Origin: Halioglobus sp.
Lineage (GTDB): Bacteria > Pseudomonadota > Gammaproteobacteria > Pseudomonadales > Halieaceae
Direction of reading: 5' to 3'
Assembly (NCBI GenBank): GCA_020443325.1
Contig: JAGRIK010000276.1
Span: forward strand, 1 to 39,433
Length of the DNA: 39,433 nt
The position numbers and the translations under genes were made by a program. The notes under the pieces were generated by a model that saw only the letters and a list, made by a program, of their open reading frames with translations, did no database searches and was not told where the DNA came from. This document shows positions 33,749 through 35,218 of this stretch, piece by piece (the first letter of the stretch is position 1; the number at the start of each line of letters is the position of its first letter).

Positions 33749-35218
<1,470 letters not shown>

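Follow-up and report, generated by a model that had tools for sequence, protein, structure and literature searches.

In IMP dehydrogenases (IMPDHs), the SSDRYF segment is the site of the catalytic Arg-Tyr pair of the flap. The IMPDH of Pseudomonas aeruginosa, whose structure is available as 4avf, is homologous to the guaB product considered here across residues 1 to 488 when the gene is read through its interruption, with the SSDRYF segment conserved; different from the guaB gene of our window, which features a TAG at codon 381, the P. aeruginosa enzyme has a Tyr at that position. A second term of comparison is offered by the isolated stop codons of draft genomes, due to a consensus error or to a fresh nonsense mutation, which present one interruption, an intact flanking frame, and no other decay. 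The guaB gene of the window shares all these traits and shows nothing that sets it apart from such cases. In the titles and abstract openings of the literature that we searched, no natural guaB amber codon was found.

Structure of the interrupted guaB gene

The window, i.e., the whole stretch of 39,433 nucleotides that was analyzed, corresponds to the entire contig C210 of a 4.7-Mb draft genome in 365 contigs, with a completeness of 89.96%. The features of interest in the guaB region are the following.

33749..35218, forward strand: guaB (IMP dehydrogenase), full reading frame with one interruption (TIGR01302)
33749..34891, forward strand: first open part of guaB, 380 codons plus the TAG, comprising the CBS domains and the greater part of the barrel domain
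34889..34891, forward strand: in-frame TAG, a Tyr codon in relatives (codon covered in 108 of 109 relative loci)
34892..35218, forward strand: second open part of guaB, with the SSDRYF segment and the natural stop (PF00478 positions 258 to 345; 4avf alignment)
35241..36818, forward strand: guaA (GMP synthase), intact neighbor (NF000848)

An earlier note on this DNA, made from its letters, had described an amber codon with an intact frame on either side, and this description holds: codon 381, in frame with the ATG at 33749, is a TAG (34889 to 34891), and the frame then stays open for 108 codons up to the natural TAA at 35216 to 35218, which is preceded by 489 positions. These 108 codons remain homologous to other IMPDHs, e.g., that of P. 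aeruginosa (4avf). When read through, guaB reaches 619.1 bits for TIGR01302 (cut-off, 481.5), thus passing the threshold for an IMP dehydrogenase, and the first part alone reaches 508.2 bits. The barrel domain is divided between the two parts, with PF00478 positions 1 to 255 covered by the first and 258 to 345 by the second (345 in total). With the standard code, the polypeptide ends at codon 381 and the complete barrel and the flap segment are not found in one chain. Since the SSDRYF segment falls after the TAG, as also claimed in the note, the truncated product should be inactive. The guaA gene directly downstream is intact, as had been stated (810.8 bits for NF000848; cut-off, 400).

Codon 381 in related genomes

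The set of relatives included 109 guaB loci, in a count that leaves out the window itself (L001) and a weak second match in its own genome (L002). Twenty-nine loci came from one genome draw and 80 from a second search, in which the best named relatives include records of Halioglobus, Haliea, and Pseudohalioglobus, and from which the records of the same or a near-identical genome may be missing. On the basis of these names, the source is regarded as a Halieaceae-like gammaproteobacterium. A Tyr is encoded at codon 381 in all the 108 loci that cover it (TAC in 86 and TAT in 22), the remaining one (L058) ending before that codon. Because all of them read Tyr, the stop in guaB is not a chance effect of the open reading frame, and the suggestion that it hits a conserved Tyr position is borne out by these loci as well as by 4avf. 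No internal stop is present in any of the 109 loci, and conserved programmed readthrough, looked for as a stop at codon 381, was found in none of the 108 covering it.

The draws of genomes, taken as a whole, gave the same picture. In the smaller one, from which the 29 loci came, a guaB match was obtained in 36 of 37 genomes (own genome included), with one other genome matching only over residues 1 to 150, and among the matches listed, a stop inside guaB occurred in the own genome alone. In the order-wide draw, 157 of 164 genomes (own included) had a guaB match and 7 had none; among the 150 of 159 matches listed, that is, 1 from the own genome and 1 each from 149 others, the own genome was again the only one with a stop. 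In the remaining 7 of the 157 genomes, the matches are weaker and fall outside the 150 listed; 2 of these genomes have a pair of matches that might derive from a split gene.

Selective constraint on guaB

Among the relatives, 176 alignment columns of guaB are invariant, and codon 381 is the sole departure of the window gene from the columns that are at least 97% conserved. To follow the branch leading to the window, we considered as singletons those codons that differ from the sister genomes G016, G001, and G008 where these three agree. The guaB gene counts 31 synonymous and 0 nonsynonymous singletons, distributed as 22 and 0 upstream of the TAG and 9 and 0 downstream of it. Neutrality over the whole branch would, at a mutational opportunity (N/S) of 2.65, predict some 82 nonsynonymous changes; the observed 0 (upper 95% limit, 3) confines a neutral phase of guaB to no more than about 4% of it. 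A decaying pseudogene was therefore discarded, on the basis of the 0 versus 31 singletons and of the lack of any further lesion in the columns at least 97% conserved. Given full constraint and no decay, the stop either arose very recently, is spurious, or does not prevent the protein from being made.

Assembly quality and expected errors

Only one strong guaB match is present in the own genome; a second copy was considered and rejected, as elsewhere there is only a 20-bit partial match. The assembly is probably a short-read metagenomic one, as suggested by its fragmentation and by the end of contig C297, where the assembly broke off within a repeated tRNA segment: a tRNA-like match without an ARAGORN call (L138, 1450 to 1622) is flanked there by two copies of one stretch.

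Of the 31 window genes inspected, guaB is the only one with an internal stop, in a count that leans toward uninterrupted genes, the 31 having been picked from the list of open reading frames in a way that favors open frames. When these genes were compared by tblastn with nine sister contigs, no mid-gene stop was found in the relatives in 200 alignments, and all their stops were confined to the initial 16 or the final 8 codons of a gene. Since relatives' stops lie only near the gene ends, the mid-gene stop of guaB is out of the ordinary. In the singleton comparison, which omits the gene at 26593 to 27618 because it has no match in the set, one singleton stop was observed in G008, at codon 14 of the gene at 25851 to 26531. 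At 0.118, the singleton N/S of the window contig is below that of each of the three other genomes compared (0.140, 0.192, and 0.219), and its counts of transitions and transversions are ordinary; thus, the contig is not visibly rich in errors. As computed, about 2% of base changes create a stop; if the coding sequence is taken to span 4.2 Mb, an error rate of 1e-5 would leave each genome with about 0.85 false nonsense codons. An ab initio scan for interrupted genes over 1.09 Mb gave 606 candidates, which by eye were mostly shadow frames, and it was discarded.

The sister comparison also brought out a short stretch around the stop.

34886..34906, forward strand: seven guaB codons, 380 to 386, four of which (ACG, TAG, CGG, and GGG) have a third-position G

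This third-position G is missing in G016, G001, and G008, and no other stretch of seven codons in the genes of the contig that were compared has four codons of this kind. At the three synonymous sites of the cluster, a third-position G occurs in 21, 5, and 1 of the 108 relatives, and comparable runs exist elsewhere: G008 has one of 5 codons in G and one of 4 codons in C, and G001 has runs of 4 codons in A. The cluster is a weak hint of miscalled bases, to which we give little weight, since it was spotted post hoc, the G is present in some relatives, and G008 and G001 have runs of their own.

Search for a decoding of UAG in the own genome

In 1.09 Mb of the own genome, 491 long open reading frames run up to a stop, which is TAG in 133 of them, and release factor 1 is intact, with a prfA match of 557.6 bits (cut-off, 423.25) and no stop inside. 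No internal stop was found among the 26 PF00005 matches listed of 36 or among the 34 PF00501 matches listed of 44. A genome-wide change of code was rejected in view of the intact release factor 1, the ordinary stop usage, and these two family scans, within the matches listed.

With ARAGORN, 26 tRNAs were read at the 27 matches of an Rfam tRNA search, and none of the 26 has a CUA anticodon, in a set that is incomplete, as it includes no tRNA for Ala, His, Ile, or Trp. A first pattern for CUA tRNAs gave no hits; as it could match only those tRNAs whose variable arm is long, a wider pattern was used, which gave 5 hits (2 forward and 3 reverse), fewer than the reversed control (5 and 12), and ARAGORN read no CUA tRNA at the loci of these 5 hits. 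The RNA downstream of the guaB TAG folds no better than its shuffled versions (z 0.38). Two tRNA-Leu genes with anticodon GAG (L136 and L137) lie on different contigs of the own genome. In the window itself, prfB (23177 to 24275) contains the site AGGGGGTATCTTTGAC with an in-frame TGA at 23252 to 23254; we take this site to be the one at which release factor 2 genes classically undergo programmed +1 frameshifting, and for this reason prfB is not considered broken.

Origin of the guaB stop

The earlier note had left four options for the stop, i.e., a sequencing or assembly error, a fresh null mutation, a suppressed stop, and expression in two pieces. The first two both fit the data, whereas suppression and restart find no support. 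We regard a one-base consensus error in the draft assembly, rather than new biology, as the likely explanation: a wrong consensus base in one contig would have turned a Tyr codon into TAG, and the living organism would most likely have a Tyr codon at position 381 and a working IMP dehydrogenase. This reading is favored because of the draft status of the genome, the lack of decay in guaB, the nearly one false nonsense codon to be expected at the above error rate, and, as a hint, the G cluster. Against it stand the low N/S of the contig, the fact that guaB alone is interrupted among the 31 genes, and the 60 listed family copies, which are clean. The main rival is a genuine, very recent nonsense mutation, which would leave the strain, or the dominant population, without IMP dehydrogenase and in need of external guanine or xanthine. 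The sequence as given does read TAG, in a contig without an excess of errors, but the genome holds just one strong guaB match, no relative has a stop in guaB among the matches listed, and a free-living population would presumably seldom have a guaB null as its consensus. IMPDH is termed an essential enzyme in the abstract of PMC9462843. As for salvage, four phosphoribosyltransferase-type genes were found in the own genome, namely, pyrE, purF, a ComF/GntX-like gene, and, on C219, a gene distantly related to the hypoxanthine-guanine enzymes. The last of these makes some salvage conceivable, but its scores are far below the family cut-offs, with 29.2 bits against 150 for TIGR01203 and 28.0 against 181 for NF006605. 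No match over the TIGR01203 cut-off was obtained in the own genome, which is incomplete, or in four sister genomes, the model passing in only 8 of 14 controls; tolerance of a guaB null through salvage is therefore doubtful. On balance, we consider a fresh null mutation unlikely.

A stop that is suppressed or read through, owing to an amber-suppressor tRNA or to its context, would give a full-length IMP dehydrogenase and would account for the intact and constrained frame downstream of the TAG; moreover, a suppressor tRNA could lie in the missing sequence, as the tRNA set lacks Ala, His, Ile, and Trp. However, a CUA anticodon appeared neither in the 26 tRNAs nor at the hits of the two patterns, release factor 1 is intact in a genome where TAG is in ordinary use as a terminator, the 60 listed family copies (PF00005 and PF00501) have no internal stop, and neither a stop at codon 381 in the 108 relatives nor a downstream RNA fold better than that of shuffled versions was observed, so that such a decoding is very improbable. 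Narrower still, a UAG decoded as sense in a key biosynthetic gene of an otherwise standard-code marine-type bacterium, with the suppressor tRNA encoded in sequence missing from the assembly, is to be regarded as highly improbable; a stop that proved both real and decoded would represent an unusual instance of amber suppression in such a gene. The proposed restart, in which the segment downstream of the stop would be translated from the ATG at 34907 and join the first part in a two-piece enzyme, can draw on the 103-codon open reading frame that this in-frame ATG opens. Nevertheless, the G-run upstream abuts the ATG without any spacing, no relative is split at codon 381 among the matches listed, and the cut point falls within the barrel domain, which makes this arrangement hardly credible. 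With the consensus error as the preferred reading, we suggest caution: modest base-error rates predict roughly one in-frame stop in a draft genome, and such a stop should not be taken as auxotrophy or recoding without the reads.

Region downstream of guaA

In the region from 36770 to the end of the window at 39433, guaA is directly followed by integrase, AlpA-like, and S24-like genes.

37084-38322: phage-type integrase with an Arm-DNA-bind_3 domain
38306-38554, minus strand: AlpA-like gene
38792-39433, minus strand: S24-like gene

This region looks like one end of a genomic island inserted at guaA and cut by the end of the contig. At the guaA end, the window has GAGTGGGA within TATTGAGTGGGAATGATT, which resembles the guaA insertion site given in PMC7775301, and G016 has a homologous segment. 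In G008, a second segment similar to the guaA end, GAGTGGGAGTGAGCTGGTAACGAC, occurs on the minus strand of contig C158 near base 600 (L159), about 6.5 kb past the end of the guaA gene of that genome, as expected of the far attachment site of a guaA island.
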